Of a DNA stretch of 64,000 bases, positions 3,669 through 36,593 are shown piece after piece. The notes beneath the pieces are model-generated. The model did no database searches. It saw nothing but the letters and a program-made list of their open reading frames with translations, and was not told where the DNA came from. Position 1 is the first letter of the stretch. Every line of letters begins with the position of its first letter. Source of the stretch: Membranipora membranacea (Eukaryota; Bryozoa; Gymnolaemata; Cheilostomatida; Membraniporidae); assembly GCA_914767715.1 (NCBI GenBank), contig OU612073.1:13392001-13456000 (forward strand), written 5' to 3'. A program made the translations under genes and the position numbers.

Positions 3669-6600
3669 CTACAGAGTTTCATGATCATCAAGAGTATAAA
3701 CTCGGTAAACACTGAGAGCGTCTTCAAAATCGCAGCTTCTAACTGGTGGTGTAGTTTTTTCTTGGTTGTTCGATTGTTGTTTTCCTTGATCAGCACTTTT
3801 TGTGATTGCCGAGCTGCTCTGTTGGTTTGCACTTGGACGTGTCTCAGACCATCTTTCGGTGACAGGTTGACGTTGATGCCTAGTTTGTAGGATTTTTTTG
3901 TGCTCTGCTTCAGAACTGTTTATGTGCACATCAGCCTCAGTTGTCTGTGGCCTCTTGGCAAAGACTTGCAAGCCTCTTGACCCCCGACAAGGCATTGGAG
4001 GTGTATTAGGCACCTTTCTTTTTGCTCCGTAATTTTGTCTCACTTTGTCAGAGAACTCCGAACACTTTAGTTTGTTCTGAATATTTACACCCCTTTGACT
4101 TAATTCTCGCGAGATAGATCCCAACAAATCTGAAGATGGAACTTTTAAATTTTCAGATATTGAGGGTTCAGATATTAAGTCTGCATTGGTGTCCTCCCAA
4201 GCTGTTGCTGCAGATCTTGTGGAATCACACAGAGAGATTCGTCGGTTCACATCACTCATCATATTGTACTCGTCTATTTCACAGTAATCCAGATAAGGAT
4301 CAGTTTTCTCTATAAATTCGTAATCTGACACAGAACTGATATTGTCTTCCATCCTGACAGTTTCTTTGTTGAAATCTAAATATAAAAAAAGAGATGTCAG
4401 TATTAAAAGAATGTTGACCTCTCATAGTGAATTAAAACGCTATCATTGCCAATGGTTAACATATATAATTTTTATTCTTTCAATTATTTTCATTCCTGCT
4501 TCAGCCAGGCACACCAACTTTTGACCAAATTTCCTCAGCCACTTACTCTTGAAGGGCTGCGCCAATACCAAAATCTTATTCCGCTCATACTGTGCAAGTC
4601 ACTCGAAATCCATTGATTAATGCTCATATACTTTTGAAAGTTAAATTCAACAACCAACAAATTGGGAATAAGTCTCAATTCGATTTCCTTTCAAAATTTA
4701 ATGCCAAAGAAAACAAATATCTTTTGCAATGCTCAGCCCTTATCTGGGGGAAAAATAGCATTTAATTCGCTGAGCTGGCTTCAGGATGTTCCGAAGTTCA
4801 ATTATATACCTGTGTTCAAATTATCTAGATGGATATCATAATTTAATCATTAGTGATTTCACCTCAATATTTACTATCTATCATATTCATCCATTAAATT
4901 ATATTCGAAATGCTATATATTTTGATACTTTCTACACCACTCATTCTAAGCTTGTGTCTCATCACGTCAACCTAGCCTTGTCATGCGCCCACAAAAGGGG
5001 TTGTAATAAAAGAATCCAAATAATCTTATATTTCGGAATACAAATAATTTGAAAAAATTGATTGCATTATTATTTAGCTTGCATGTCATAAAAATCCATG
5101 CATACCAGGATATAATGAGGTTTTAGCCATCTGCTATACTGTCCCGTTGACGTTACAATACTTGAATCTATCACCACAGACTTGTAACCTTCTTAACAAA
5201 ACCACAACGAGCACAGATCAATAAGTGATTACCATTGAGACCTAGGATTAGTCCTCCAGTGATATATAAGTGATGGCAGGAGATGCTGTGAATCACAACA
5301 TGTTGTGATCTATCGTTAATCGGAATTGATTTTATTTTCAGTTTAAGTTGGGATTTGGAATGAGGGGAGCTAGACTAATTCTTGTAGTTACTCTTCCAAT
5401 CATCTCATTACTTTATGCAGGAGCTGGGAGCATAACCACACTCCGAACTTGTAATCGATTTCCAACTAAAAATCGATTTTCTACTAAAAACCCAGGTGAG
5501 TTCTTATTGGAGCTGCATGCACGCTTTGAGAACCTAAGTCATATATGTCTACTTGGCTTGTAACACGCATTTGTTTGCTTTTACTGCTAACATACATATT
5601 TGGTATTGTTGATCTTTCACAAATTGATAATTTGAGATATTGATAACATCCTTTATTCGTTTTTAGACATGTATCGGTTGGCCCAAACAGAAAAAGTATT
5701 CATTTCACCCTGGGACTGCTTTGACAGTTGTCAAAATAATTTCGGGACCGAAGAGATAAGGATTTTTGGCTATCCATCTTTTGATCATCGCACGTGTGCC
5801 TGCAGACTCTGTCCAGAGGATTACCTGCGTGGAAATAAACTCAATCTATTGCTGAGCCTTATGGGATGCAGAGACGTTAAGAGTATGGAGAGTAATACGA
5901 AAGAATTTAGTGGCCTGCTAACATATTCCTGCAAGCCTGAGTTAGATTTATACTTCAAACATGATATTAGTTACGATATTTAGGGGAACTGTTTGTTAAA
6001 TTTAATTTTTATTAGTTTTGATGAATCAATTTTTTGACTTTTCAATCATATTGCATGATAATGATTAATTACAGAACAATACCTTACAAATACATCAAAA
6101 GTGCAATTGCTTCCTGAGAAGAGGCTTACAATGTGTGTGAGAACTACTATATGGTGTTTGAACTTATTAATAAAATCTGAAAAATATAGCTGACATACCT
6201 TGTACTCTCGGTTGGGTGTTTACTTGGCCGGCAGGTGCTTCATTCCTGACTCTAGATCTGGAAAAGATATTGCAAAAGATTAGCAAGAATTGAGACAACT
6301 TGGACGCAATAGTTTGCACAATCTAGTAAGTTTATGGAACCAACTGTAGGTATAAAGTCATGTTGTTGGTATCTTGGAGTGCCAAGTATTAAGGCCTTAG
6401 AGCTTTAGTGACTGATAGTGTCATTTTACAATATTCTCATCAAATAATACAGGCACTTGTTTGCACGCCAAATTGCTAACAAACTGAAACTGCCAAAAAT
6501 GAATTTCTGGCAAATCGATGTGGAGTAGAAATATTTGCTCAATAGTGTTTTTGTGATTAGTGTAATTCACTATTTAGATTACAGCTGACTACGCAGATAT

Positions 6601-9600
6601 TCAAATGATAATTTTTTACTTTGATGATGATAGTTATTTTCTCACCTGAGTTTATGACGGAGTAAAATGAGCACCATTGCAACAACTGTCAACAAGCTCA
6701 GAGAGGCTCCAATGATGGAAATGGTTAGAGCTGATGATGATGTGTCTGTATCACTTCTTGTTGAATTCTCGATATGGTTATTAGTTTGTTCAGTATCATG
6801 AGGCCTGTAATTGGGGTTATATCCAGAATCAGTTGTCACTGCTAAAAATCAAAGAATCATTGATTGATTGATATTCAGTTTTCGGTCTGCTCTTTCCCTC
6901 GTTTGTTCTGCTAGAATAGAATGTTGACAACTTAAATATTCAAAATATTATCAAAACTAGAGAAAAAAAGACTTTCCTTTGATAACTGCCGAATGATGAT
7001 GTGAAAGTTCCAAAATCTAAATATATAAAGCCAGTAGGTGGTGACGTATCATTTATGTAAAAGAGAGAGTCTATAACTTGTATGCATGCAACTGTATTAC
7101 ACCAAGATTTTTCATGTCATAGTACACTGTTCAAGCAACAAGGAAGGAAAAAATGAAGCACCTATACCTGTCTCATGTGTTTGGATTCTTGAGTTGTTGG
7201 AAACACCTGCATTTTTGGCAACACCAAAGCATTCCAGCGGAGGGTACCATTGCTGATCTTTGCACTGGAATGTGTTGACCTTGTGACTCAGTTGGAACCC
7301 ATCCAGACAAGAGGCTGTGTATCGCAGAGAATCCAAACTGACGAACTCATGCTTGTTCAGATGTTGTATGTTGGTATTACACGGTCTAACTAAAAATAAA
7401 AACATTCATCATAATTTAAATTTATTAAGTGATGTAAGTAATACTATAGCGCTTTTAGGTGGCAATAAATGATATATGACATTTTAAAACGGTAATATCC
7501 CTCCTAATTGTTTGCGACTCTGAGCTGTACACCTCTCCATTAAACAAGGATACAGGGTTATGATAGCGATAACATATTTCAGATAGAACAAACCTTATGA
7601 GGAAAAGTATAGTCACGCATGATACAATTAATCCAAGATATTGGCAAATGATTCCTTATATTATATAATTTGGCAACATGGTAAAGGCTTGTTATTTTGT
7701 TATAGATTATGGATGGTTGTCTTCAGTCCATAGGTTTATCAAATTTATACCATTGGGATTTGAATATTAATAGCTATAAATTGCATCACCTTGTCCAACC
7801 GTCTAACACATCAAATCTAATTAATCATGGCTACAATTTACAGTAATTTTAGACAGCTTTATGGGCAGGATCCCATTGGTTAATACATTAATTTCATTGA
7901 ATTCAATTTATGATAATTGCATTCATACATACCTGAGTATCTTATGTGTATCATTTCACCTTTCAGATAATATCCTTGTACTGTCTGATAAATCAATGAG
8001 ATTGAAGAGGGGCCAGAAAATCTCTGCATGCGTTTCTTTTCATTTCGATTCGTCAGGTCCAGCGTATTGTGTCTGTTTAAGATGTTCAGTTTCTGAAAAT
8101 TTGGTAGTATCGGATCTACCTGAAATATTTCTACAGTCACAGTCCCTGCCAATGGCAGATTAGTAAGTAGAGCCCACATTTTGCTGCTTGATGTCCCATT
8201 GTGGGCTTCTCTTCTGAAGTTGGGATCATTTGTGATGTATCCATCAGGGTATACTCTGGCATCAATCAGACCCTTAGGTTGTGAAATCGAGAACCGAAAC
8301 AAAGGATATACTGAAAGAGAATTTTCATGAGATGTTACTGAAATTGTTTGAGGTAGATATTTACACAAAAATGATGATTCTGACACTAACCAATGTCCAT
8401 CGAGGTGATATGGACTCCCTAGTGTGGGGATTATCTTGAATCATTTGCTTTGACTGATATACATGGCCAAGTTTCAGCTTTCAGATTCCTATGATTGGAA
8501 AAAACATCAAAGGCAAACCATGCTTTTTTTGCCTGGATTGACTGATATGCAGACAAGTTTCAGTTTAGATTCCTTATGTTGAAAAAGAACATTTTACAGC
8601 ATTGGGATCGGATGGTGTGAGATTAGGTCACCGCAAAGAGCTTGGCCCTACCATTTCAGGACGTCAATTTCGAATAATCCTTGAATTTTCATTAGTCATT
8701 AAAAATATACATTGACCAATTTTATTTGTACCATTAACAGGTGCTCAAAAGGGAACTTTTTGCCATAGATGGGGTTATAAAGGAATGTTAGAATTTTCAA
8801 TGTTGTGATTAGCCAAATTCTATCACTAGCTATCAATAAAATTGAAGCATTTGATGAAGTTTACGAATAGTGGCAGTGAAAAGACCTCATGTTGCTATCC
8901 TTGATATTTTCAGTTAATCTCAAAGTTGGCGACAGTGTTGTGAGTGCAGGTGCTCTTCAGAACATGTCTTGCAGCAGTCAAAGCCTTAATGCATTGTTGT
9001 GCGAGTTGTGGTGGCCTTTACCCATGCCTATACATCACCTGACTGTTGGATTGAACTAAGCACCTAAAATATGTCTTAGCACGGGCTGCACCAACAAACA
9101 TCCACTATGATCTTGTCATAAAACTGGTTACTTTTTCTGTAATGAAATTACCTGCAAATTCAATGCGGTATCCGTATTGGGTTTTGTTTTCAATCCACAG
9201 TAGTAGATCAACTTCACCACTAAAGTATTCTCTCTGTTGTGGACATGATCCATTCTCTGTATTTCTTGTTATTGTTCTGTTCAAGAGGCAGTGCCTGCTG
9301 ACATTACTCTGTTGATTGAAGACAAGAACACAGCTGTCACAGGACCCAGTTATCCGGATCTGACGCGTATCAACCTTGGTTTGTTTCTCTGAAATCCTCA
9401 CGGCACAATGTCTTACTGTCATTTGGGTTTCTGCTGTGATTTTGGTATCACTATCGTTTGATGAGCTGCAAACCTCAACATCATCTATAGCAATCCTTGT
9501 CTCTCCACTCAAACCTCCTAAAACATGGCAATAACTTAAAATATGAGCTGATTTACAGCAGCAACAATTTTGTCTGCAAAATTGATTGATTGTGACAAAG

Positions 9601-9814
9601 CACAGCTTCACCAAACCGCATGTGAAGATAGCAAAAAATCAGTTAAATGATCAATTTATGCAGCTTACATCAAGGAAAAGTTAACCACCATATTTATCTT
9701 CAATAATCAAGTTGTCATTTTTTGGTGATCACAACCACAGGGTCATAAACCTTAGAAGTGTGATATATTAGACTTACATATATAAATCAAGATTAAAACC
9801 AACCTTGTGTGCAT
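3669..9814 (-). CDS. Receptor A: type I sushi/CUB-like receptor with ITAM-like tail (most intact copy)
   Basis: Spliced exons, minus strand: 9778-9814 (candidate signal-peptide start), 9152-9514, 7933-8310, 7168-7389, 6646-6838, 6199-6257 and 3669-4375. They join in frame to 652 aa. Extracellular exons are all phase 1-1. Exon 2 is Cys-rich and begins with a GETRIAIDD segment like the end of a MAM domain. Exon 3 is a cysteine-free CUB-like beta domain ending EMIHIRYS. Exon 4 is one sushi/CCP domain with four cysteines and the WYPPLEC ending. Exon 5 is a Ser/Thr stalk plus a transmembrane helix. Exon 6 is basic juxtamembrane. Exon 7 is a 235-aa tail with YEFI-x8-YCEI (ITAM spacing), EYNMM (YxxM) and PPMPCR (PxxPxR). 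The first exon and its junction are weak; exons 3-7 are strong. The family is unknown to me beyond these domains. The secreted gene at 5360-5983 lies antisense in the last intron. Confidence 0.7.
5191..5270 (+). promoter_or_regulatory. Promoter of secreted gene S1 (conserved block plus TATA)
   Basis: A TATATAA box at 5263-5269 lies about 90 bp before the ATG. About 45 bp further upstream is a block (5191-5220) whose reverse complement contains TCTGTGCTCGTTGTGGTTTT. The same block and a TATA box recur at matching distance ahead of S2, S3 and S4, although surrounding intron sequence is less conserved. Confidence 0.5.
5360..5983 (+). CDS. S1: small secreted eight-cysteine protein nested in receptor A
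   Basis: Two exons, 5360-5495 and 5667-5983, joined at GT-AG in phase 1, give 150 aa. The start ATG opens a hydrophobic signal peptide (MRGARLILVVTLPI...) ending near Ala-Gly-Ala-Gly. There is no later membrane segment. One cysteine lies in exon 1 (RTC). Seven lie in exon 2: CFDSC, CACRLC, MGC and SCKPE. The SPWDC...CACRLC layout loosely recalls WSC-type domains, but I do not recognise the family. The linker at the exon 1 end carries an 18-bp tandem duplication (NRFPTK / NRFSTK) absent from paralogues. AATAAA occurs at 6169-6174. It lies wholly inside the last intron of receptor A, on the opposite strand. Confidence 0.8.
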
Positions 9815-10450
9815 AATACTCCATATAATGTTGTTATAAGAATGAAACTTTCAGCAATTCTGATGCACAACCTGAAATTTATATTATTATCAATCAGTTC
9901 CGGAAATGTGTACTATTGGCTCGGAATTACGGTTTGTAACAACATAGGGATCACCAATTTGCACCATTCAAACATTCTATCAATCAATGTACTCCCATAA
10001 GACACATAGCATGCATAGCATAAAGGAGGCGAGAGGTGACTCATTGGATAAAAATGGTTATCAGATAAGGCACACAAAACTACTCACATATTATTTTCGT
10101 CCGTTGTTACTGTTTATGAAATAAAAAAAGGAAAAGGTAAAGGAAAAATACTTGGAGAGACTTGATAAACTCTGATCGAAATGTTTACTGTTGTGTGAAT
10201 GATGCAGCCACCTAGCTTGAAGATAAACATACAACTGGCTTGAAAAGAAACAAACTTTCTTAGTTGTTACATAGATTAGAACAAATTTTAAATAATTCTA
10301 ACAAACTACAATGCATGATTAACAAAAAATCACATTCAAATTACATCATTTTTTCACCTGTTTCATAACAATGGCCTTCCACTTTTTCCTTGTTGCCCCT
10401 TGTTTGAATCGACAGATTATTAACACTAATCCAAACTGTGGTAAACAGTT

Positions 10451-11002
10451 CTAATTTTTTGTACATTGCAGTGTATTTTTTAGCTGATAATTGCACATTG
10501 TAATATTATGAAGTCTCAGCTGTATCGTTGAGCAGAACCTCCAAGTACAAAGGGGTGCTGCAGTTGCAGTTTTTGCCTGATGGATCGCTTGGTACCTTTC
10601 TTCAGAAAATCCTGGGTTTTCACACTGCCCTATCAATAATCTATATTGCAAACGTATTTCGACACAAATTGGAAGGAGAGGGGCAGCCTTAATTTTTGGA
10701 ATGATACTAATATTTATATTAGGTCTTAATTGAAATTCAAACAATGGCCTTGGGACAATGTTTTCCTCAAAGACTTCAATACACAGGTGTTGCGAATTAT
10801 AATTGAAGTCTGCGACATCAAAATGCAAATTTTTCGACTGTATGCTGTACTTGCCTAGATCAAAATTTCGATCAGTCCGAGGAATTTTGAAATTTCCTAG
10901 AATATACACCTGACACTTCGCTTGAGTTAGGTCTGTCAAGCCTTGATGCAAGTGAATTTCCATCCCCGTTTTGTTACTCTCTTCAAGAATACAGCATTCC
11001 AT
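10451..11002 (-). CDS. Possible exon or small gene upstream of receptor A, unrecognised
   Basis: An open frame of 183 codons, long for such AT-rich DNA, starts at ATG directly after an in-frame TAA. It reads as a beta-rich, Cys-containing ectodomain-like sequence (KCQVYIL..., CIEVFEEN, PLFEFQL) with no signal peptide or transmembrane helix. PLFEFQL resembles PLFRFSI of the CUB-like exon of receptor A, which lies downstream on the same strand. No phase-1 donor that would join it to the 9152-9514 exon was found. It could be an extra ectodomain exon with an intermediate exon I missed, a separate small gene, or a relic. Confidence 0.35.
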   Translation of the reverse strand: MECCILEESNKTGMEIHLHQGLTDLTQAKCQVYILGNFKIPRTDRNFDLGKYSIQSKNLHFDVADFNYNSQHLCIEVFEENIVPRPLFEFQLRPNINISIIPKIKAAPLLPICVEIRLQYRLLIGQCENPGFSEERYQAIHQAKTATAAPLCTWRFCSTIQLRLHNITMCNYQLKNTLQCTKN

Positions 11003-12720: not shown

Positions 12721-12721
12721 C

Positions 12722-12912
12722 AGAGACTTCGGGTCAATAGGCCACTGCCAAAAACCCACTGGCCATCACGCCACTGGTCTAAAAGCTACTGGCCATAAAG
12801 CCACTGGAAGATCCCACCCACCCTTTGCAAATAAATATTTTAATTGACTCCACCCGAGCATCTTCTCACACATTTTTTCTGTACCGCAACCCAAAATTAA
12901 TAAATAAAATTG
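12722..12912. mobile_element. Second copy of the 15-bp-repeat foldback-like element (left end only)
   Basis: This matches 25-215 in direct orientation, including the GACTTCGGGTCAATAGGCCA start and the ACTCCACCCGAGCATCTTCT segment. The interior and the right-hand repeat array are missing, so it is a truncated copy. Confidence 0.6.
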
Positions 12913-12989
12913 GGTGATCACCATATGAGTAATTTGATTGAAGTGCTAGGCTTCAGACTCTTTACTATAGGCATATATTGAAAGAAGGT

Positions 12990-14414: not shown

Positions 14415-17400
14415 TCCAACAGTGCAATACCAACATAAAACATTTGGACAAGCTACAGTTTAGAAGTTTTGGTCTTCTAAATTACAAAGCCTCTTGTCTC
14501 AAAGGGTTCGAATTACTTCACAAAATCGATTCTTTCCTCTGCAAAAATCAGCGATGGGATCCTCCGCTTGAATGTGTTGATGTCCCCAATAACATTACAG
14601 ATGCAGGTAATAAATTTATTTCAAGAATTCTTATTCTCTAACCTATCCCTAATTGTCAACTGGACTGATTGACTCAGAATTACTTGGCATAGTATTTTGT
14701 TGATCGTTATTTCAAGTAATTGATTTAGCCCAAATTATCAATGCACTATGTTTAAATCCTTCATTATCTTACCCTACCAGTCTACACCCTTGATATATAA
14801 TGTGTTGACAATCAATGACTAGGTAAAGGTATTAACCTTCACTGATTAGTTTGTAGCTCTCAAAAAAAAACTTGATGTAATTTCCTTTTATTTTATAGGT
14901 GACTTTCTTCTGACGACAACTGATTCGAGCTTTAAAAGCGATCATAGGACACACGTTCGAGAAAAATCGGAAACTCGTAATGATTCTCAAATGAAAGTAG
15001 TTACTGATTCATCAACTGCCATTATTTCTATTATCGCAATCACTCTGAGTTTGGTGACAGCTATTACGATGATACTAATCATATACTTCAAATTTAGGCA
15101 AGTAAATATATTTCAGTGCTTGAAACAAGAGTTTTGACAATTAGATCTTTCTCTGTAGTCAAAACTTGAGCTTTAGTGAAATATTCCATGCTGTCGACAG
15201 ATAGTCAACTTCTACTGTTTCGGTCGATGAATAGCTAGGACAAAGTTAAAAGAGAGTTTACACAGTCTCTTTACTCTGAGGAAAGTATGGTATTCCAAGT
15301 CACAAACATCCATTGTATTCAACCAATCGGATTAGGATGTATGTATGTATGTGTTCATTTCACAACCAAAATATCATTTTCCAGTGAAAGAAATGATAAA
15401 ACTAGGTTGGTTATAGAAAAAAAGTATTTCATGCATTATAATGCCAATTGAAAAACTGAATAAAACTCTTCTTGCGCTTCTCAGTTCGATTACATATTGT
15501 ACTATTGCTTACATCATGCTTCAAATCATTTTGATAATGTGATATAGGTCTGGTGTTATTCTCATATTTTTCACTTCTAGGGCGAGAACTCTAATACCTG
15601 CCAGAAAACAACTAACCCAACCAAGAGTAAAAGGTTTGTTATTTATCAACACATATATTTATATAATGAGGTCAGGATGATTTAAACCCTGTATCGATGA
15701 ACTTACATGACACTCATTGATTGATTGATGAATACATCTTGTTCAGAAGCAATAGAGTTATTTATATATTCTTTATTTACCACAGTGGTTAATTAGTTAG
15801 GCGTGATGTCATCCCTAAATGGAAAATGAATACAAAATATGGAATGATCATTTGATAGGCCTAACGGCCTTCTAAGGCTGTCTCAGATATGTCTATAGCC
15901 AACAAAAAAACATAAGTAAACAAAGGGGATGAAAAACCTGGTACAATCTGGCCTGAAAGATATTTCAACATTTAACGGCTACCCAAAGATCATTGCATGT
16001 TATAGTCAGCCAGTTATTTATGATAAAGTCATTTCAGATTTGCACGTTACAAAATTTCAATGTTCTACATTGCATGAATTATTGATGGCAGAAAGAGAGT
16101 CTTCCATAAGGGAAGGAAATTCACGTTCTCTCAGGATGTACAATTAAAGAAATACTGGTAGTTGGCGATAGTGTTATAATTTATTGAAATGTTGTCCTGA
16201 GGTGTCTGTGGGCTGTTTACCTTTTTGCTGTGGGCTTAGTAAGATATGGACTGAGATAAAACAAGTTACATCGCCATTGCCAACGGTCAAACATAATGTA
16301 CCAAACAATATTAAATTTTGCACTGATCACCTTAATATCATCCAATGATGATTGAGCGAGTGCTAACTTCTGTCAACCTTTCTTTTATAATAATACTTCA
16401 TATATGTAGGCTGCTCAGGCTTGCAATGATATGATAGAAGAGGCGCAAATGTGTCTTCTGTTTCACTTTCCATACTACTGGCATCCTTGCATCCCATTTT
16501 GTTCAGCAGTAGGTTCAGCTTATCACCACGCATGTAATCCTCTGGACAGAGCCGGCAGGCACACCTTACCTCATCATCAGCCGCATAGGCAAATATATCC
16601 GTCTCATTAGTAGAGAACTGTTGACATAAGTCTACGCAGTCAAAAGGTGATATAAATTTTTCTTCTGTTGTTGCCAGCCAATACATATCTAAAATTGAAA
16701 TGTTAGAATACACATCACCATCAACATCTTTTAAGATCAAGCAGTGAAAGATCTAGATTAGCAAATTTGGAATTTATAGCAATGAATGATATCAAATTCA
16801 CTCTACAAGTTTAACAATCTAATTCAAGATGAATCTTTTTACATCATGACGTGTAGATCCAACTCATCTCACCTGGGTACTTAGGAGAAGGCCATGTACA
16901 CGTCCGGATTTGGGTAACGCTGTAAGCTGCAGCACGAAATAATGAAAAGATTACAAGATTAACCAAGAAAATGAGTTTAGCGTCCTTCATTCTAATTCTA
17001 AGCTGACACAAACTATATCAGAACAGCTTTGACTTGCTGTGTAAAACTTCACTTCTTTTATACCGCTAGCAAATTAATCCTATAACCTTAAAAGTTATCA
17101 TGTATTAATCTGTGCTCATTGTGGTTTTGTCAAGATGGTTGCGCATTTGTGGTAAAAAAGTCAAGTATCATATTGTCAAAAGGGACAGTTTGACAGATGC
17201 CTCATCATTAATATTCCTAGTTTGCAGTGAAACTAGCAGCGCTCATCTGATTAATCACTATGGAATGTGATAACATGATGGATAAAGAGAAAATGCAGTC
17301 GACTTTTACTACTGCCTGATCCCCCTTCTCAGCTTCATTATACCAATAGCATAATTTATTATCAATTTCATGTTACCCATCAAATGGGGATGAAACAGCG

Positions 17401-18172
17401 AATGAATTCTGTTTTGTGACCGGTACATTTTAGTATAGGTTAAACTCAGCAAAGCCTGATCCAAATCATTCTGATTGTACTCTTTGATTTTCTATTTAAT
17501 CTAGATTGTGATGAGGAGGCTGTCTTGACCGAGGCAAACATCAATTCTCTGTCAGATTATGAATTCATCCAGCGAACTGATCCCTATCTGGATTATTGTG
17601 AGATAGACGATATGTTAAGTGATCTGGACCGAAATATCTCTGATAAAGGCACCAAAACATCTGCAATAAGTCGAGCATCTAAAGAAGCAACTAATACAAA
17701 CATGATGTCTGAGACCTCATTCACTGAAAACTTGGAAATTCCTTCTGCCGATTTGCTGGGATCTATTTCTCGAGAATTTAGCAAAAGGGGGATAAATCTG
17801 CAAAACAAAGTGAAGTGTTCAGATTTCTCTAACAAAAAAACAACCAACTATGGTGCCGAAAGAAAAAAACCTCCTAATACGCCTCCGATGCCTTGTCGGG
17901 GATTTAGGGGTATGAGAGTCTTCTCCCAGCGACCACAAACAGCTGAAGCTGAAGTACACAGAGACAGTTCTCTAGAAAACAATAAATCTCTGCAAACAAG
18001 ACATCAACATCAACATGATCAGAAAAGCGTGTCTGAAAATTGTTGTAGTGCAGTCCACAACGGGACGATTACAAAAAATGCTGATCATGACAATCCGCAG
18101 CCAAAAAAAACATCAAAAACTACTCCACCAGTTGTAAGCTGTGATTTTGAAGATGCTCTCAGTGTTTACTGA
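14415..18172 (+). CDS. Receptor B: sushi-TM-ITAM-like tail, 5' end missing, tail cut short
   Basis: Exons 14,415-14,606 (sushi/CCP, four cysteines, RWDPPLEC), 14,899-15,097 (stalk and transmembrane helix), 15,581-15,633 (juxtamembrane) and 17,505-18,172 (cytoplasmic) keep one open frame with matching phases. The transmembrane exon uses a GC donor (AG|GCAAGT), where paralogues have GT. The tail keeps YEFI-x8-YCEI and PPMPCR but lacks the YxxM of copies A and C. It stops at TGA (18,170-18,172), where paralogues read CGA and run about 11 codons further. No CUB-like exon or signal exon is visible upstream, and a LINE relic occupies that place. It could be a 5'-truncated gene using a distant start, or a decaying copy. 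S2 is nested antisense in the 15,634-17,504 intron. Confidence 0.6.
16363..16990 (-). CDS. S2: small secreted eight-cysteine protein nested in receptor B
   Basis: Exons 16,873-16,990 and 16,363-16,688 (minus) join in phase 1 to 147 aa. MKDAKLIFLVNLVIFSLF... is a clear signal peptide; the mature part begins near Ala-Tyr-Ser. Cysteines: RTC in exon 1, then CVDLC, CACRLC, MGC and YHCKPE, eight in all. The C-terminus is basic (KYYYKRKVDRS). No membrane helix or known domain is certain. Exons are nearly identical to S4 at 34.8-35.4 kb and more distant from S1 and S3. AATAAA on the minus strand lies at 16,180-16,185, about 180 bp past the stop. It is transcribed opposite to its host receptor. Confidence 0.8.
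17056..17140 (-). promoter_or_regulatory. Promoter of secreted gene S2 (TATA plus conserved block)
   Basis: A TATAAAA box (plus-strand 17,056-17,062) lies about 66 bp before the ATG at 16,990. The conserved upstream block containing TGTGCTCATTGTGGTTTTGT is at 17,111-17,137. Both are shared with S4 at the same spacing, and with S1 and S3 more loosely. Confidence 0.55.
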
Positions 18173-19700: not shown

Positions 19701-22700
19701 TACAGTCATGTGATACCAACATCAGACATTTGAACAAGACAGCCTTACAGAATGTCGGTTATCAACAATACAATCTCTTGTCTGAATGGGTTCGAACTAC
19801 TTCACAAGGTCAGAACGTTCCGCTGCAAAGATCAGAAATGGGATCCTCCTCTTGAGTGTACTTTGGCCAATAACTCAGATGCTCAAACACCAGTGACAGG
19901 TAAAGTTACCTCAACTTTCCTTTGCTCTTTTTTTATTCACTTGAACACCGTATGTCGTAGACATTAATGACATGTTTAAAGGCCAGTTTGTCTTGTTTTT
20001 TTTATGGAAAAAGAGAAGCTGTAATGATCATTTTATGTGGAAATGGAATGTGCTGATGCAGAATATTGTGATAATTATGGTAGCAGAGAACAAATTCTTA
20101 TATAGCACACTTGACCACTGAGAAATATCGTTGTTCTATTTATGGAAATTTTAAAAGCAACAAACAGGAGGGGGTAGGCTGTAAAAGGGGGACAAGTATG
20201 GCATTACATTTATTAACCATTGGTTTTGCTTGTCACCAGCTGTTGCCAGTATGATTTATCCTCATGCACCATCTGCTTTGCCTAGACCTTTAAATATAAA
20301 TTTTAAACTCACCAACTCATATACAGGACACTGAAATTTTGCCTGGTTCACATAACTAAAAATAGATCACCATCTCTTATCAAAAGAAAGACTGAGAACT
20401 GTATCCTCTTACTGTATGAATAACAATAAATAAGGAATACATTTTTGTTTCAGACAATCATATTTTCTTTGATTTTATTCGAATCTAAAAATAACTTTTT
20501 TTTCTTCAAGAGAATGAGCATTCTAACATTCTCTTGCTGTTCACTTCTTTGCAGTGACAACTAATACTCCAAATGATGGAGATCATAGAGCTCATGATGG
20601 GGAACAATATTCAAACACTAATGAGGATAATACAAAAAGTGGTACTGATTCAGCCGTGCCATAATCAGCTCTGATTTTATCAATTATTGCAATCACTCTG
20701 AACTTGATGGCAGTTGCTGCTGTGTTGCTGATTTCGTACTGTTTTATAAAAAGGTGAGTAAATAAATTAGAAATAATCAAGCATTTTCATTTGCCTATCT
20801 GTGTAGTCAGCAAAGTTTAATACAAATGGCACTAGACACAAAAGCAATACTTAGCAAAGACTTCCACTCAAGAAATTCAGTTTCAAATTTGGCTTTTTAG
20901 GAGCTTGTTGTAAAGTTGGTGGGGGGAGGGTTAAAATATGGAGAGATATTCCACTGTTGCTGTCAGTGGCCAAATAGGAAGGTAAATGCATTTATTAAGT
21001 TAATTCAGGATATCAAGTACTTTGGTAGATAGACATGTACACCATTTACTCTGGTAATATTTGCAATCAAATCAGCAAAAATTAAATGAGTAAAGATGCC
21101 AGACTGTGGTCCCAAATGAAATGAAAGGAAAGATTTGACATTTGGGCACATCAACAACATGCCCGCGTATTTCCAATTCAGTTACAATACTTAGTTGTGC
21201 AAGCTTATGATCACAGGAAAGAAACTATCTGGATGAAGTTATACGGTGATTCTCACATTCTTTCAGATCTAAGAGCAGAGAGAAACTACCTGCCAGTCTA
21301 GGACTGACCCAACCAAATGTGCAAGATTCGTTAGCTACCAATACTTGTTCGCAATTACATATCCTTCTATTCATTTTTGTAAATAAAACATAGACTTTAT
21401 CCCCATCCTAAAATCGAAAATATGTAGTATTGAAGGCAGTACTGGGTAGCATATGAGAAATTCCTCATAGGGGCCTTCAGAGGATTTATGTGGTTTCTAA
21501 GCCCCAATTTGTCACACAAAAAACAGTACAATTTTTCCCATCCAGCTTCAATCACTGTATATTATACTAGATCCATATCCCTTCCTCTCTTTAGGAACAG
21601 TACGAATGCAAGAAGTGAATGCAATCACATAGGATATTGTCGACACCTGCACATCAAGTCACCTAACCAAATTGGTTTTTGTGAACCATTATTTTGTTAT
21701 CATTAACTATTTCAACCTCCATCCCTCATAGAAAAGTAGTCAAAGTGCCAGGCCAAAGGTTTCCTTGAGATAGATTTCTTTGGTTCAATGGCTAATCTCT
21801 AAGAGAAGAGTCATACAATACATTTTGCTGAACTTTAAACTCTGGCGTACCACACCGAAAATAGAATTTACAGCCGCAGATGGCCCGTTGCAATGCTTCA
21901 TCGGTTTCACTTTGATCAATTGGAACCATAACTGTAACAAACTATCTAAACTCACTTGCAATGATGGTTTTGTTTGACCTCAAAATATTGATTTGTAGAG
22001 AGTTTTAAATCTATAATAGATCATAAATCTACATGCTGTACGCCATTGAATATGGCTCAATGTGGCTTTTTTTGACAAGACATGCTAGGCTCGACGGAAT
22101 TTTCCACAAGTATCGCCTTTAGTGAATTATTAAATAATTGGAGGATAACTTTAAACATGATATGTGGGTGGAAGTGAGTCACATGCGATATTTTAAAGTC
22201 TATAGCATTACTCCTTGCCCATGTTAACCTCCATGATTGGGAGTCTCTATAATCAACGCTGGATCTGAAGGGAACTTCTCCTATCTGGCTTTGTCAAGAT
22301 TTTATTGTCCAAAAACCCCTGTCAAGATTGAACAAGATCGGTTACACACAATTCAATAGTGTGATGTTTTATAGAATTGTCATGTTCTCTATGCCTCGAT
22401 GCTAATGCTCCTTCAGTATCCTGTCTGGTTTACTATTATTAAGTATACAAGTTTAGCCCAGTATCAATGAACTTACATTGCACTCACAAGTCCTGTCGTA
22501 CATACCGATGTTTGAAAGTTTTCAATATTGTATTGGTGATCATGTCTAGAAGTTACTTGCACAGTTTAAACCTCCCAAATATTTGACATCGAGTCGCAGC
22601 AGTGACCCCTAAAATTTCATTTTAGGGCAAAATGTGCCCTTTTTAAATTGAGCCCTTTGTGCATTTTTATTGAGGCATTTGATTAGTTTTTGCTTTCACT

Positions 22701-23515
22701 ATATAGAGGAGGCATAGCATTAAATGGAGGAGTGACATTTTAGTAAAACTTTATGTTTTTAGGTACTGGTATCCTGTCTTTGAGTCATAAACTTGATTTT
22801 TGTAATAGTAATAGGGCCGTTTTTAACCCCTCATTCAATGCGACCCCGATAATGCAAGAACTTAAATTTCCAGTTCATTACATCATGTTGGTCTTGTACT
22901 TCTGTCACTTCCATCAATAATCTTACCAGCCTACAGGTTTGCATTGCATTTTCACACAACAATTCAGAAAGATGTCTGTCAAATTTGTGGTCAGCATGAC
23001 AAACAGCAGGAGATTGTCTAGATTTTGATTCAAGCGACTATTGATTATGGCTTTAAATCTTGAGATATTTGACTTTTTGTGACTAAACAAGCTTTATTTG
23101 GTCCAAAACATAGTTAATTCAGTTAATGTACAATTAATCAAGTTAGAAGCGGGCAGTTTAAAAAGTGTCGTGGTGTGAAACTTGAGTCAGACTAATAGCG
23201 GCGTGTCAGTGAAGGAATTTTTGAGATGGGACTGAAAATGCGATATATCACATTAAGAATATGCAGTACGTCTCATTTTTATTATTTAGAGTGGTATTTG
23301 TTAGACTCTATTGGAAAAAAATTAATTTCAGCATGCAGTTATACTGTAAATTTATTGTACTGTAAAGAATCCAATAGTTACTCATCATAACAGCAATAAA
23401 ATCACCTAATTCTTTAACATAAAACATGGCTAAAAAACTTAATTTATAATTGAAAAATATTATGTAAAATTGAAAATATTCAATCCATACGAAAATTTGC
23501 CTCCAATTAAAGAAT

Positions 23516-24183
23516 TCAGCTTTTGAAGAATATATCCAACTCAGGCTTGCAGGAATATGTTGTGTACCAGGAGAATTCATCTGTATTACTCATCAAACTT
23601 TTGTAATCCCTGCAACCCATTAGACTCAACAATAAGGTAACTTTATCACCACGCATGTAATCTTCTGGACAGAGACGGCAGGCACACCTGCGTTCATCAT
23701 AAGATGGATATGCAGCTATCCATGTCTCATCAGTGCCGAAATTCAGTTGACAATTGTCCATACAGTCAATGATTGAGATAAATTTTTCATCTGTTTGGGC
23801 CATCCAAAACATGTCTAAAAACGATAAAATAAAAAGTAGAAAATTTAGATTCCCTCGCACTTCAATCATAAGCATATCGTGAATAATCCATTTGTGAAAA
23901 ATTCACATGACCAAATTTGAATGCCAACATATATCATCAAATGAACAATACAGGTTTCACCATAAACATATAAATACTTTATATTTTTATGTTTATGGGT
24001 TTAACAGTCAAGCAGATACCGGTGACTATTTGCTCCAAAAGCATGCCCACAGCTCTGGCACAACTCACCTGGATTTTTTTGATGAGGTTGATTACAGATT
24101 CGGAAACGCTGGCCCTGAGCTCCATCACGAGGGAATGAGATGATGACAAGAGTTACCACACAAATCAGTTTGGCTCCTCTCAT
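23516..24183 (-). CDS. S3: small secreted eight-cysteine protein nested in dead receptor D
   Basis: Exons 24,069-24,183 and 23,516-23,814 (minus) join in phase 1 to 137 aa. Signal peptide MRGAKLICVVTLVIISF..., then RIC in exon 1, then CMDNC, CACRLC, MGC and SCKPELD in exon 2. The signal peptide carries one extra cysteine. The mature eight-cysteine plan and the DYMRGD segment match the other copies. The C-terminus is short (IFFKS) and resembles S1 more than S2/S4. AATAAA on the minus strand is near 23,278. Its open frame and splice sites are preserved although the surrounding receptor is a pseudogene, which suggests independent selection or recent decay of the host. Confidence 0.8.
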
Positions 24184-24271
24184 GATAGATTCGAGATTGA
24201 TCTGGAAAAAAATGTATTCTTACCAATGACTCCCACATTAAGTTGTGATCCATTTAGTCCCATCGCATTAC

Positions 24272-24360
24272 TTTTATATCACTCGAAGACTAATCCTAGG
24301 TCCTTATTGGTAATCACTTGATCAATTTCAACAATCTGTGCTCATTGTGGTTTTGTTAAG
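24272..24360 (-). promoter_or_regulatory. Promoter of secreted gene S3 (TATA plus conserved block)
   Basis: TATAAAA (plus-strand 24,272-24,278) is about 90 bp before the ATG at 24,183. The conserved block with TCTGTGCTCATTGTGGTTTT lies at 24,335-24,360. A TAATCCTAGG element between them is shared, inverted, with S1. Confidence 0.5.
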
Positions 24361-25493
24361 ATTGTGACGGCATGTGGTGAAAGAGTCAAGTATCATGTTG
24401 CCAACAGAGACAGATTTACAGATGTCTAAAACCCCATGATTTGCCAATCTTATTTTGACTTGTATTATATGCTAGTTTGAGGTTAAAACAATAATGGTGA
24501 TGTCAAGATCATTTGGTGTTTCAGATGATCTCAATCTTAGATTATTATCAATTATTGATTAATATTATCCCAATTTTGTGAAAATAATTTGAAATTATTC
24601 GTCCCAATGATAATCTAAATAACTTATACACTGGGTGATGAATGCCTCATATATTTGCATCATTGTACAACTATTGGCTGTAATCAAATTCTATTCCCTA
24701 TAAACTTCTCACAGCAATGCTTTTTGGAGACACATTTTACCGCTAATGTTTAACTATCAACACAATAGGGTACTCATTTAAATTATAAATTTGGAGTGAA
24801 AAGACTGATACATAGTATTTCCTGCACTTTTACAATGGTTCGACTTCACAAATCTTCAATTTAAACACCTTCATTTTACTCACAAATGTTTGTTCAATTT
24901 AGATTACAAAGAAGAGGCTGACATCAACCCTGTGTCAGATTATCTGGATTATTGTAAGACAGATGTGTATGATATACGACTAGTGATCTGGACAAAAAAA
25001 ATGATATACATAGATTACCTAAGGGCCCTGAGTCAAGTTTGGGGTCTGTACCTTCACTAATTGAGAACTTCAAATTTCCTTCATTGGACTTGTTGAGATT
25101 GATTTCTAGAGAATTATGTGAAAGGGAGAAAAAACTTTGGTGGGAAGGGAAAAAAGACCTCATACACCTCAAATGATGGGGGCCTAAGGGCATGAGGCTA
25201 CTCTCCCAGGCAATGCACGCACACAACTGAGGTTGAGGGGCAAAGAGAGAGAGAGCCGATTGAGTTCTGCTAACAAAATATCAAGCATATCCTGTTTAGG
25301 AAAGAAGGTCAGAAGACCTTCTTAGAACAAGCCATCATAGCAGCGGGACAATTAAAAAAAGTGCTGATCATGACAATCTAGAAATCAATCAGGAAGTCAA
25401 GTAAAAACTACCAGTTTGAAGCTGTGATTTTAAAGATGATCTCAGCGTATATCAAGTGTACGCGTTTGTAGGTGACGAATCTCATATCTGTTG

Positions 25494-29470: not shown

Positions 29471-29474
29471 GTAA

Positions 29475-29600: not shown

Positions 29601-30117
29601 CTGTTTCTGTCTAGCGAAGAATACATTTTACGCCAGAAATTACGAAAAATGTGTAAAAATTCTTTAAAAATTTCAATATAAGATGCATGTTTTGGTGTGA
29701 CAAACAATACTAAGCTTAAAATCGTCTTTCTTTTCATGGAAATTATAACTTTAATAAGAAGTGTATATCCTCTGGGAGAGAGGTTCTTCAAACACTACCA
29801 TTTTTGCTATGAAGTTAAATTGAGCAGTGCCCTCTAAATTAACATACATAATGGTTTTGAGTTGATCTATTTCGCCTATATCTTCTATGAACTCATTAAC
29901 AGTAAACATAATTATTTTAACTGTAACTGATGGCTTGATCTCAATTACTCTCTAATTTTGTATTTGAACTTAAACTTGAACTATATATCGCCCTGAAAAT
30001 GGATGAGCTGAAAAAAACCCATATTGAATTAGTGACAAAAATATAAGATAATATCTCACTAGCTACCAAGTGCTTGTCTATCAAAGCTGGTAAATTATTG
30101 AACATCCTAGGTTATCA

Positions 30118-30320
30118 GGTTAGCCTAGTAGTGGATAGCGAGTTGGATCATTGATTTGACGACCGGAGTTCGATACCAGGTTCTCGTTATCCAAGGTTGG
30201 CTATGGAGTGGTTGGACCCAGTGTCCGGGCGATAATGATGTAGTGGAAAACTGTTTAGAGGTACCCATAGTGGCTTACATTGAGAGGTATATAAAGAAAC
30301 TCATTAATATTATCTAATTT
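30118..30320 (+). mobile_element. tRNA-derived SINE-like element
   Basis: The head contains an A-box-like GTTAGCCTAGTAGTGGATAG and a B-box-like GGAGTTCGATACC about 40 bp later, as in a tRNA. An unrelated body follows (GGTTGGACCCAGTGTCCGGG). This is typical of a Pol III-transcribed SINE rather than a working tRNA gene. Confidence 0.5.
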
Positions 30321-30478: not shown

Positions 30479-30596
30479 CTGCATGGTGCTTTAATAAATG
30501 TTTACATGTCCGAACTTTGGTTATGCTTTGAGCTCCTGCATGATGTAATGAGATGATGACAAGTGTGATCACAAAATGTAGTATGGCTTCCCTTAT
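30479..30596 (-). pseudogene. S5: relic of the secreted-gene signal-peptide exon
   Basis: The exon reads IREAILHF, then VITLVIISLHHAGAQS, then RTC, and ends in a good phase-1 donor, like exon 1 of S1-S4. However, the start codon is ATA instead of ATG, and no second exon is found at 29.6-30.4 kb. Weak remains of the TATA region (about 30,675) and of the conserved block (TCTGTTGTGGTTTTATTAAG, 30,732-30,751) lie upstream. It is a dead fragment of a fifth module. Confidence 0.7.
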
Positions 30597-31599: not shown

Positions 31600-34500
31600 G
31601 CCCGGGTATGACAAATTTCTTTCAGCCCTATTCGCTTACTAGTTGCTCATTGCAAAAGGAACTGACACTTTCAATCGCCTGTGGACCACAGCCGGCCATT
31701 TAGGTTTATGGGGAAGTCGATTGCGGCAGTTGGAGGTCGTTAAGGGAGAGGGGTAAGGGAAGCTAGGACCCTCAGTTTTTCACAATTTATCATAATTTCA
31801 CTTTAACAGTCCTGTACAGTTTACAGTTATACAATGGTTCAACCCAATTTTCTTCAAGATTCAGCATGCCCATGTGATTTCTTCGGAAAAAATTTGATTT
31901 TGTGTTCGAGTTGACAGCAGATTTTGAAAATGGGATTGTGATAATTCTATGTACAAACATTTGACCAATCAGTTGGCAACATTTAACCATTTTGATTAGT
32001 TTGCTAACAATTTGTTACGCCCTATGTTGATCCAATTGCAAAGAAATCACTAGTAGAAATGGAAGAATAAACAAATTAATTATAGTCACAGATAATCAGG
32101 ACCTACTGTTTTTAACATTGAATAGATAGGCAAAAGGTGACTATTTGATTCACTCTTTTGAATTCGCAAGAATGAGGGAAGTCTACAACGGGAAGCAAAC
32201 GGCGAAATTAACCAACCAATCTGACATAAATGAGCTGTTGATGTTTTCTAGCGCTGATGAAACAATTTTGGCCTGCCAAACTAAACAAGGGTATGATCTG
32301 CAAAGTGAGATGATCCATATCAGATACTCAGGTATGTATAAATGACCACAATATTTCTTAGAGGGTCTGATCAAGTTAATGTTAAACAAAAACAATATGA
32401 TAAACTTAGACAGGAGACTATATTGAGCAATAAGAATAGAGGGGTTGAGGCACTGAGACATTGAATTCATTAGTAGCAATGTTTATCATTGATTTTTATT
32501 CATTATTCAATTAATTGTATGACTTTGTCAATTTTGTTTAGGAACATTATATATTAAATCATACGAATGAACATGTAGCATTTTAATTCCAGATCAGATC
32601 TAAACTGACCATGTAACAAATATGAAACAGGAAAGTAACTACATTATTATTTACATAATGCTGACATCTTCTTTTGTGTCGACTGTACACGAGACTCAAA
32701 TTAAAATGAATTTACCTGCATGGCATCTGATAGAGATAGAGCAATAATTTTCATATCATAATATAACATGCTATTGTTATATTATTCCATATTCTCACTT
32801 CATAAACTTATATGAATAATATTTATTTTTTCAGTCCAGAGGTGCGATATCAACATAAAACATTTGGACAAGCAGGAGTTTAGAAGTCTTGGTCTTCTAA
32901 AATACGAAGCCTCTTGTCTCAAAGGGTTCGAATTACTTAACAAGGCTGATTCTTTCCTCTGCAAAGCTCAGAAATGGGATCCTCCGCTTGAGTGTGTCGA
33001 TGCCGCTAATAACATGACAGATACAGGTAATACATTTATTTTAATAGTCATTATTACCTATCATATCCCTGATTAGTACTCGACTATTTGAAAATTTTGA
33101 ACAGGTCAGAATGAATGAAAGAATTACTTCGTATATTATTTTAAATTTATTTTCTATATTTAAATATGATTGAATCTCTTGATTAAGTTTGAATTATCTA
33201 TGCATTATATTTATAGCTTCCTCAGGACGTAAATGACACTGCGTTGTCTTACCATATGGGCCTACACCCTTGATATATAATGTTTTGATTATCAATGAAT
33301 AGAAAACGATCTTAACCACTATTAACTTATAAGTTTGCAGCTTTCATGGAAAAGTAAGAGTTGTTTCCTCTCGTTTTATAGATGAATTTATTCCGCTGAC
33401 AACCGGTTCGAGCAATAAAGGAGATCATCAGACACATTATGTATATCAATCAGAAGGTCATATTGAGTCCGATTCATCAGCTTCCATTATTTCTATAATC
33501 GCAATCACTATGAGTTTGTTGACAGCTGTTGCGATGTTACTGATTGTCTACTACTTCAAATTCAGGTACGTAAATATATTTCAGTGTTAAAACAAGCATT
33601 TTCACAATAATGTCTATCTCTGTAGTCAGAAAACTTAAGCATAAATGAAACATTCCATGCCATTGCAGGTAGTCAACTGCTACTGTTTTGGTTGATGAAT
33701 AGCTACGTCAAAATTTAAAAAAGCTCTTGCTTACGCAATGCTTCAATTCATTTTGATTATGAAAGAGGTCTGGTGTGATTCTTGTATTTTTCACTTTTAG
33801 GGCAAGAGATGAAACACCTGCCAGAAAACAGCTAACCCAACAAAGATTACAAGGTTTGCCATTTATCAATACTTATCTTTATACAACTAGGTCACAGCGG
33901 TTTGAACCCGGTACCGACAATTGTTACTGAAGTTTAATAATACATCTTGTTCACAGGCAAAAGAGTAATTTAGATATTCATGATTTATCACAGTGGTTTA
34001 TTAGGTAGGCCTGATGTCATTCACAAATTGAAATTGAATATGAAATGATCATTTAAAAGGCCGGATAGCCTGCTCAAGCTGTCTCAGATATGTCTATAGC
34101 CAGCAAAAAACATAAATAAACAATGGCGATGAAAAGCCTGTCACAATCTGGCTTGAAAGAAATTTAAACATGTGAATGTCGGCTAATTTTACTGTAATTT
34201 GGCGATATTTGTTAGAAGTTATTGAAAGGTTGTTTTGATTTGACTATGCGCTGTTTACCTTTTCGCCGTGGATAAAGTTTGATATTAACTGAGAACGAAC
34301 AAGTTACATCCCCATTATCATCGGTCACACAGAATGTTTCAAACGTTAGCATTTTTGGACTGAACACCTTTATATCCTGCCGATGATGACGGAGTGAGTG
34401 CAAAATTCTTTTAATTTTATTTTATTTTGCCAGAGCATTATAGGAAATCACTTGTGTGTATGCGGAATGCTTCAAACCATAAACAATAATATGATGAAAA

Positions 34501-34835: not shown

Positions 34836-35404
34836 TCACCATATCACTTTTTTATAATAATACTTGACATGTGTAGGTTGCTCAGGCTTGCAATAATATG
34901 ATAGAAGGGGTGCAAACCTGTCTTCTATTTTACTTTCCATACTACTGGCATCCCTGCATCCCATTTTGTCCAGCAGTATGTTCATATTATTGCCACGCAT
35001 GTAATCCTCTGGACAGAGACGGCATGCACACCTGACTTGATCGTTGCTCGGATAGGCAAATATATCTGTCTCAGTAGAGAACTGTTGACATAAGTCCATG
35101 CAGTCAAAAGGTGATATAAATTTCTCTTCTGTTGTGGCCAACCAATACATGTCTAAAAAATGAAATAATAGAGTACATGTCACCATGGATAGCAATGAAT
35201 GAAACAAAAATAATTCAACAATTTATTTGAAAAGATTCAAAATGAATGCTCTTTATAACATGATATGCAGATCAAACTCAACTCACCTGGGTACTTAGGA
35301 GAAGGCCATGTACACGTCCGGATTTCAAAAATGCTGTATGCTTCAGCATGAAGTAGTGAAATAATAACAAGATTTACCAAGTAAATGACTTTAGCTTCCT
35401 TCAT
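34836..35404 (-). CDS. S4: small secreted eight-cysteine protein nested in receptor C
   Basis: Exons 35,287-35,404 and 34,836-35,152 (minus) join in phase 1 to 144 aa. Signal peptide MKEAKVIYLVNLVIISLLHA, then RTCTWPSPKYP, nearly identical to S2. Exon 2 carries CMDLC, CACRLC, MGC and YYCKPE, giving eight cysteines, and ends KYYYKKVIW, differing from S2 only at the tip. No membrane helix follows. It occupies the last intron of receptor C in antisense, as in the other modules. Confidence 0.8.
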
Positions 35405-35468: not shown

Positions 35469-35550
35469 TTTTATACCTCCGGAGATTTAATCCTAGAATC
35501 TTAAAAGTTATCATGTATTAATCTGTGCTCATTGTGGTTTTGTCAAGATG
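35469..35550 (-). promoter_or_regulatory. Promoter of secreted gene S4 (TATA plus conserved block)
   Basis: TATAAAA (plus-strand 35,469-35,475) is about 65 bp before the ATG at 35,404. TGTGCTCATTGTGGTTTTGT with flanking bases is at about 35,524-35,550. Position and sequence match S2 almost exactly. Confidence 0.55.
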
Positions 35551-36593
35551 GTTACGTGTTTGTGGTAAAAAAGTCAAGTATCATATTGTCAACAGGGATA
35601 GCTTAACAGATGCCCCATCATTAATATTCCTAGTTTGCAGGGTAGTTAGCAATGCTCATCGGATTAATCACCATGGAATGCCAAAACATTTTGGTTGGAG
35701 CAAAAATGCAGTCAGTTTTTTATTTACTATCCCATTTTTAGCTTCAAAATATCATTTTCATCTTATGATGAAACGGCCAATGATTTCAGTTTTGGTCCAT
35801 GTACATATTAGTGTTGGGAAACTTAGAAAAGCTTGATCCCAATCATTCTTGATTTTAATCATCGATTTTCTATTCAATCTAGATTGTGGTGAAATTACCG
35901 GAGAGAACATCAATTCCGAGACTCAAAGTCAGATTATGAATTCATCGAACGAACTGATCCCTATCTGGATTATTGTGAGATAGATGAGTATGATATGATG
36001 AGCGATATGAACCGAAATATCTCTGATAACGGCACCAAAACATCTGTAATAAGTCAGGTATCTAAAGAAGAAACTAGTAAAAACATGATGTCTGAACCCT
36101 CATTCACTAAAAACTTAGAAATTCCTCCTGCCGATTTGCTGGGGTCTATTTCTCGAGAATTTAGCAAACGGGGGATAAATCTGCAAAATAAAGTGAAGTG
36201 TTCAGATTTCTCTAACAAAAAAAGAACCAACTATAGTGGCAAAAGAAAAAAACCTCCTAATACACCTCCGATGCCTTGTCGGGGATTTAGGGGTATGAAA
36301 GGCTTCTCCGAGAAACCACAAACAACTAAAGCTGAAGTACACAGAGACAGTTCTGTAGGAGACAATGATTTTCTGCAAACACAATCTCAAAATCATCATG
36401 TTCAGGAAAGCATGTCTGAAAATTGTCATAGTGCAGTCAACAATGGCAACGGGACAATTACAAAAAGTGCTGATCATGACAATATGCAGTCAAAAAAACA
36501 TCGAAAACTACTCCACCAGATGTAAGCTGTGATTTTGAATATGCTCTCAGTGTTTACCGAGTTTATACCCTTGATGATCATGAAACTCTGTAG

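Follow-up and report, generated by a model that had tools for sequence, protein, structure and literature searches.

The question raised by this locus is why a small gene for a secreted, cysteine-rich protein (S) should lie on the opposite strand inside the last intron of a membrane receptor gene, and whether the two genes belong together. The window, i.e. the whole 64,000-nucleotide stretch of DNA that was analysed (C9:13392001-13456000; 339-Mb assembly, 18 contigs), holds four modules (A to D), and in 4/4 the initial annotation, which had placed S antisense between the juxtamembrane (JM) and cytoplasmic exons, was borne out: S lies there between the JM exon and the ITAM-tail exon. The annotation had also given each module a receptor; nesting and tail exons were present in A-D, but the receptor is complete only in A, 5'-truncated in B and broken in C and D. 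The features, in coordinates of the window, are as follows.

10088..10117, minus strand: receptor A exon 1, 5' end not fixed, ending in AT of a start codon split AT/G by the first intron; donor and split codon conserved in six aligned modules
9804..9871, minus strand: receptor A exon 2, signal peptide (by reading), (M)LCIRIAESFILITTLYGVLCTQ
9152..9517, minus strand: receptor A exon 3, extracellular e1, no Pfam match above cut-off
7933..8310, minus strand: receptor A exon 4, extracellular e2, no Pfam match, poor structure model
7168..7389, minus strand: receptor A exon 5, sushi-like domain (PF00084, E 8.6e-4, 20.1 bits, cut-off 20.7)
6646..6841, minus strand: receptor A exon 6, transmembrane (TM) segment (by reading)
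6199..6257, minus strand: receptor A exon 7, JM
3669..4375, minus strand: receptor A exon 8, cytoplasmic tail, ITAM YEFI-x8-YCEI
5099..5359, plus strand: S gene A upstream block, conserved across modules, TATA box at -97
5360..5495, plus strand: S gene A exon 1 (signal peptide, Cys 1), within receptor A intron 6198-4376
5667..5983, plus strand: S gene A exon 2 (Cys 2-8), AATAAA 186 bp past the stop
14415..14606, plus strand: receptor B sushi exon, none found 5' (ends by reading)
14899..15097, plus strand: receptor B TM exon, GC-AG intron next (ends by reading)
15581..15633, plus strand: receptor B JM exon (ends by reading)
17505..18172, plus strand: receptor B ITAM-tail exon, stop 11 codons ahead of that of A
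16363..16990, minus strand: S gene B, exon 1 16873-16990, exon 2 16363-16688, TATA at -72
19702..25482, plus strand: receptor C pseudogene, sushi ~19702-19899 (frameshift), TM 20555-20753 (in-frame TAA), JM ~21267-21325 (donor lost), tail remnant 24902-25482 (ends by reading)
23516..24183, minus strand: S gene C, open, exon 1 24069-24183, exon 2 23516-23814, TATA at -95
30480..30596, minus strand: fifth S relic, exon 1 only, start codon ATA
32181..32331, plus strand: receptor D e2-exon remnant
32835..33026, plus strand: receptor D sushi exon (ends by reading)
33382..33565, plus strand: receptor D TM exon (ends by reading)
33801..33853, plus strand: receptor D JM exon (ends by reading)
35883..36593, plus strand: receptor D ITAM-tail exon, frameshifts near start (by reading) and near end
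34836..35404, minus strand: S gene D, exon 1 35287-35404, exon 2 34836-35152, TATA at -71

Receptor A (665 aa, eight exons, internal splice sites GT-AG) was the only complete receptor in the window, with the layout of a type I protein: signal peptide, e1, e2, one sushi-like domain, one TM segment and an ITAM tail. The exons e1 and e2, ahead of the sushi exon, were absent from the earlier description. The sushi exons of A and of module c1 (19.7 bits) both scored below the Pfam cut-off, and no sushi match was obtained for the c9b exon or, at E<=1, for full-length A, for which DUF6377 (E 0.009) and TMEM154 (E 0.02) were returned, both far below cut-off. Neither e1, e2 nor S gave anything above the Pfam cut-off; an Ig match was likewise absent for e1 and e2, which may still have an Ig-like fold. 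A first impression, by eye, of e1 and e2 as CUB domains was dropped, Pfam giving no match above cut-off, and the e2 structure model (pLDDT 46) was too poor for a structure search. An ITAM is defined as YxxL/I-x6-12-YxxL/I in a cytoplasmic tail, and the predicted receptor tail fits this definition: the pattern was read in 15/17 fetched tails (lost in C and M5) and in 5/5 database tails, and the cassette form of it is YE(F/V)I-x8-Y(C/T)EI. The ITAM-like tail claimed earlier is real as a motif.

The other receptors of the window showed different degrees of damage. Within module B no exon was found 5' of the sushi exon, and a repeat copy (12724-13610; another near 22-1724) lies upstream, ahead of the start of homology to the upstream intron of D. 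In addition to the lesions listed above, the tail of C carries stops and frameshifts. An open frame upstream of A ("u", 10451-11008) was weighed as a receptor exon and ruled out by stops in the other modules. Rfam and tRNA searches gave no match.

The S genes proved to be as first described, i.e. two-exon genes for a secreted protein with eight cysteines: each has a GT-AG intron, and the open reading frames of A, B, C and D encode 150, 147, 137 and 144 aa with 8, 8, 9 and 8 Cys, the ninth Cys of C sitting in the signal peptide (by reading). The N-terminus is hydrophobic and eight Cys are conserved in the four window genes. In 4/4 S genes the 350 bp ahead of the start hold a single TATA match, placed at -71 to -97 (the window rate predicts about 0.38 such matches per 350 bp), and AATAAA lies 160-186 bp past the stop in A, B and C but 410 bp past it in D. 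When B was compared with D, identity over the 250 bp preceding S was 84% with 1 gap, as against 85-86% in the S exons and 60-77% in the flanking pieces of intron; farther off, the TM-JM intron showed 82% identity with 252 gapped columns. By sequence, S is a real gene with its own putative promoter and poly(A) signal.

The fold of S was only weakly predicted. The CSalphabeta fold pairs a CxxxC helix with a CxC strand in a beta-alpha-beta-beta order, and the modelled core of S may be defensin-like or CSalphabeta-like; the best Foldseek match of the model had E 0.62. PAN/apple and WSC folds, weighed by eye, were not among the Foldseek matches listed and are not thereby excluded. The single match in a PDB sequence search (E 1.1) was attributed to chance, Pfam gave only HPS6_C (E 0.12, 2/9) for S exon 2 of nine members, and no S relatives were found in IMG/VR and GTDB contigs.

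The same arrangement was found far beyond the window. The S protein of module A gave 75 genomic matches (60 exon-2 loci, and 15 exon-1 matches that were left out), and the tail query gave 100 matches merged into 80 loci, these genome-wide counts being lower bounds. A tail lay on the opposite strand, on the expected side and at 0.9-2.1 kb (median 1.5 kb) for 50/60 S loci (contigs C1, C2, C3, C4, C6 and C9), but controls on the first 60 S loci in the same distance band gave 0 same-strand pairs and 2 opposite-strand pairs on the wrong side, so the nesting is beyond chance. A diverged S query from C3 added 3 further loci, 3/3 paired and one at 0.7 kb (running total 53/63), and a third, still more diverged query (C9:7.06 Mb) added 4, one of them paired (C9:18.744 Mb, 1.5 kb) and the others partial matches without a listed tail (C2:7.58, C3:3.31 and C8:25.57 Mb). 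In total, the three queries yielded at least 67 S loci, 54 of them paired at 0.7-2.1 kb on six contigs. The 13 unpaired loci were eight in C9:13.247-13.340 Mb, two at C4:24.196 Mb and the three partial matches; at C9:13.247 and 13.274 Mb the unpaired S exons were open with all Cys kept. No S was found for 26/80 tail loci, an upper bound because some of the 80 are second fragments of one exon (e.g. C3:4698112).

In fetched DNA, 17/25 S loci (two split rows merged) sat between the tail and other receptor exons. The exon order was e1-e2-sushi-TM-S-tail at C1:19.32, C3:4.70 and C9:17.92 Mb and in the C2 cluster, and TM-JM-S-tail at C4:2.02 Mb, where the fetched stretch begins at TM. Pairing persisted, over six contigs, even where S identity had fallen to about 30%, and the nested receptor/S pair is thus an old cassette with dozens of copies spread over six or more contigs. 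Among database relatives, P0002 and P0004 were 99% identical to S copies of this genome, P0001 was near-identical to the unpaired S at C9:13.274 Mb, and P0006 and P0011 resembled, by reading, near-alleles of the M3 tail and R1 e2; the database relatives of S, tail and e2 probably come from the same or a close species, and so give no independent test of age.

The reading favoured here is that S is a co-inherited secreted partner of the ITAM receptor, to which, from the sequence, a probability of about 0.5 may be given. The main evidence is what travels with S. In partial Mantel tests (distances not independent, pseudogenes included, near-duplicate R4 left out), S was correlated with e2 given the tail (r 0.75, p 0.0002, n 11) and given TM (0.61, p 0.0002), with sushi given the tail (0.63, p 0.0004, n 14) and with TM given the tail (0.76, n 16), but weakly with the tail given e2 (r 0.15, p 0.19), TM (0.23, p 0.09) or sushi (0.26, p 0.10); only the tail given e1 went in the opposite direction (r 0.59, p 0.019, n 9). 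S divergence therefore tracks e2, sushi and TM more than the tail, and distance alone does not explain this, since S is nearer to the tail (0.9-2.1 kb) than to e2 (2.1-3.1 kb). Single modules suggest that tail exons were exchanged between modules: the tail of R5 is 98% like that of R3, but in S, TM and sushi R5 is closest to M7 (87, 71 and 84%; runners-up 85, 67 and 77%), and M6 has its nearest S and TM in c4 (86 and 77%) but its nearest tail in M7 and A (84 and 81%). The pattern fits a matched S/ectodomain unit with a swappable tail, though tail-biased gene conversion for other reasons would look alike.

As a mechanism, the outer gene would encode a type I membrane receptor with an ITAM tail and the inner gene, antisense in the last intron and under its own promoter, a small, secreted, disulphide-rich protein. 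S may be the secreted partner of the receptor, either ligand or cofactor, whose binding to the matched ectodomain would trigger ITAM signalling of the Src/Syk type; nesting would keep matched S and ectodomain together and leave a generic signalling tail exchangeable. Immune or self/nonself recognition would be the likely setting. The initial annotation had described the pair as a co-inherited unit, inseparable in inheritance. The first part gained support from the pairing of 54/67 S loci and from the tracking of the ectodomain over the tail, but "inseparable" is too strong, because modules appear to have swapped tail exons, and some intact S genes now lie within decayed receptors.

This decay bears on the first rival, less probable than the co-inherited partner: S may be an independent secreted effector (e.g. 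defensin-like, antimicrobial) that lodged in an ancestral receptor intron, was carried along by block duplication and was kept for a function of its own. In codon models, omega for the four window S genes was 0.37 (p 4.5e-9 vs. 1), and 0.39 on branch C (p 0.023), where S is open though the receptor is dead. On the B and D branches, omega was 0.33 for S (p 3e-4 vs. 1) but 0.98 for the receptor (p 0.93 vs. 1), and the tail exons of B and D were no more alike (89%) than their non-coding 3' flanks (89-91%). S has thus outlived its own cis receptor on these branches, which is the strongest point for an independent S function. Disruption counts pointed the same way: detected receptor exons of 17 modules had 38 disruptions in 8042 aa against 1 in 1736 for S exon 2 (binomial p 0.005), and at least one disruption was present in 12/17 receptors vs. 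1/17 S. These disruptions are clustered (10 in module C alone), some single-base frameshifts could be assembly errors, and the contrast is weak by module and with length allowed for, so the decay argument rests on the omega tests. S matches had served to pick nine of these 17 modules, which biases the nine toward intact S (receptor 15/4140, S 1/908, p 0.19); the 8 contiguous modules gave 23/3902 for the receptor and 0/828 for S (p 0.012). No disruption was seen in the detected exons of A, of M6 at C9:13.372 Mb, of c9b at C9:17.917 Mb, and of c1 and c3, with the limits that M6 e2 aligned only from residue 16, c3 is partial and the c1 tail has three stops beyond the aligned part.

S genes open inside broken receptors, the two open S genes without a tail, the self-contained promoter and poly(A) signal (both predicted) and the weakly predicted CSalphabeta-like core would all suit an independent effector. 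Its cost is that S remains mostly paired with a tail (54/67) after many duplications on six contigs, and that its divergence tracks the ectodomain. Stops were moreover found in 4/8 tail-less S loci of the fetched DNA (three in the Cys core, one past the last Cys) vs. 1/17 nested ones (past the last Cys; Fisher p 0.023), two of the four being copies of one duplicated segment.

It is improbable that S serves chiefly to regulate the receptor, with antisense transcription toward the TM exons disturbing tail splicing and switching between ITAM-bearing and tail-less forms. That S keeps its place opposite the receptor strand, between TM/JM and the ITAM tail, agrees with this, as does the conserved upstream block with its TATA box. 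Purifying selection acts on the S protein, however, whose Cys spacing hardly varies, and a purely transcriptional role is disfavoured because it would need no conservation of the protein. Nor is passive nesting probable, by which one accidental insertion was inherited and S, a secreted protein specific to the lineage, has a function unrelated to the receptor: animal genomes hold many nested genes and one nesting event could account for all copies, but tails were apparently swapped while S stayed with the ectodomain, and pairing was kept on six contigs to about 30% S identity.

For the co-inherited partner, comparison with known recognition systems is of interest. No PKD1/REJ-type or fibrinogen-like domain was matched by Pfam in the 665-aa receptor or in S exon 2 of nine members, in agreement with the early claim that the domains are unlike those of Themis; v-Themis is fibrinogen-like. 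In Ciona, s-Themis has PKD-type domains, v-Themis lies on the egg coat, and in three pairs the partner gene sits in the first intron of its receptor in the opposite direction (PMC7018956). The likeness is a partner gene on the opposite strand of a receptor intron, in more than one pair per genome (PMC7018956); the difference is the first intron and three pairs there against the last intron, 54 paired loci, an ITAM receptor and a small Cys-rich S here. Botryllus fester/FcoR receptors, which bear sushi domains where the cassette has a sushi-like exon, resemble the cassette in being multigene, clustered and paired with a neighbouring gene, with ITIM, hemITAM or core tyrosine motifs in the FcoR tails, but FF and FcoR adjoin and are both membrane proteins with Ig domains, and fester has three TM segments (PMC12065747). 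The cassette differs in that its ITAM is complete, with two tyrosines, and its putative partner is secreted and nested. The alr genes of Hydractinia encode homophilic Ig-like receptors, in which we know of no nested secreted gene. They share with the cassette the status of invertebrate candidate allorecognition genes with ITAM/ITIM motifs (PMC12065747). The kinase feature of Brassica SRK is absent from the cassette receptor, for which Pfam gave no kinase match over 665 aa. SRK belongs to the receptor kinases, and SCR is not known to be nested. The SRK/SCR (SP11) S-locus (PMC7530648, PMC10624595) is that of a plant and not an animal. The likeness is at best convergent.

The initial annotation had framed the locus by tunicate precedents, and the Hox genes do not support that frame. 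An Antp-type homeodomain was matched at 92% in this genome. Sponges are not known to have Antp-type homeodomain genes, and a sponge origin was rejected on this match. One Hox homeodomain (L037) carries the Lox5 parapeptide KLTGP at positions 64-68, and this signature belongs to lophotrochozoans and flatworms and not to chordates, ambulacrarians, ecdysozoans or xenacoelomorphs, as given in PMC5431905; the host is therefore a lophotrochozoan or a flatworm, and not a tunicate or other chordate.

A literature search, with most subscription papers outside its scope, found no nested ITAM-receptor/secreted-protein family. To our knowledge, Themis is the only other case of nested antisense receptor/partner genes in animals, and the recognition genetics of spiralians has been little explored. 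Here, in another branch of animals, unrelated proteins seem to have come into the same layout, which has multiplied to 54 paired loci. If ITAM signalling had such a secreted partner built in, spiralians would gain a directly testable candidate recognition system, and nesting would look like a form of linkage that has served more than once to keep ligand and receptor matched. Tentatively, and with less confidence than the partnership itself, the dozens of nested cassettes may serve recognition in spiralians, be it in allorecognition, in gamete compatibility or in immunity of an NK-like kind. In each, a secreted defensin-like ligand would be locked to its ectodomain and a shared ITAM tail shuffled, i.e. 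an animal counterpart of the plant S-locus with the Themis architecture invented independently.

Evidence that S is under positive selection was weak (p 0.07). In the site models (near-duplicate R4 left out throughout, c3 also left out of the tail model and D out of the e2 model), e2, one of five parts tested, showed a site class with omega 4.6 (p 0.015, six sequences).

Eight loci for S, the small secreted 8-Cys protein, were located in the block C9:13247000-13340000 of the assembly (L009-L018), with no ITAM tail detected at any of them and, at most, juxtamembrane, transmembrane or sushi pieces of the receptor nearby. Two were open and had all their cysteines, four contained stops, and the other two had lost cysteines. 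A portion of the block was duplicated, with the copies approximately 33 kb apart.

Searching the whole assembly with the tail as query revealed further clusters of diverged receptor-type tail exons (C3:26733292-26869515, C9:18667078-18767954 and C5:10.80 Mb), and S was found for one of these exons, at C9:18.744 Mb; for the remaining ones, S may be present but diverged beyond detection. In M3, another receptor/S module on C9, exon 2 of S (L020, C9:13351427-13351732) had lost the seventh cysteine in the reference copy (GS for GC); this cysteine was retained in P0004, a database relative 99% identical to the M3 copy.

Further features of the window were as follows:

22-210/12724-12912, repeat pair (85-97% identity, range for both pairs)
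1137-1724/12993-13610, repeat pair (same range)
10451-11008 (-), open frame 5' of receptor A
42315-42414, self-inverted repeat, hairpin-type element (76-94% identity, range for all three)
53118-53636, same type
63003-63144, same type
46500-50400 (-), gene adjoining the array, RhoGEF and PH_19 domain matches
61127-62782 (-), gene for tubulin-binding cofactor C, with matches to TBCC_N and TBCC

The 3' flanks of receptors A and D (2184-3269 vs. 37154-38594) were 78-85% identical, compared with 75% for their tail exons, indicating a block that was exchanged or is repeat-derived. The open frame was rejected as a receptor exon because homologous DNA, also present upstream of other modules, was interrupted there by stops; it represents conserved 5' sequence instead. 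The two repeat pairs, upstream of truncated receptor B, were mobile-element-like.

The stretch 30110-30300 (+) resembled a tRNA-derived SINE, though by eye only; ARAGORN detected no tRNA gene. The gene adjoining the array is presumably ARHGEF10-like.
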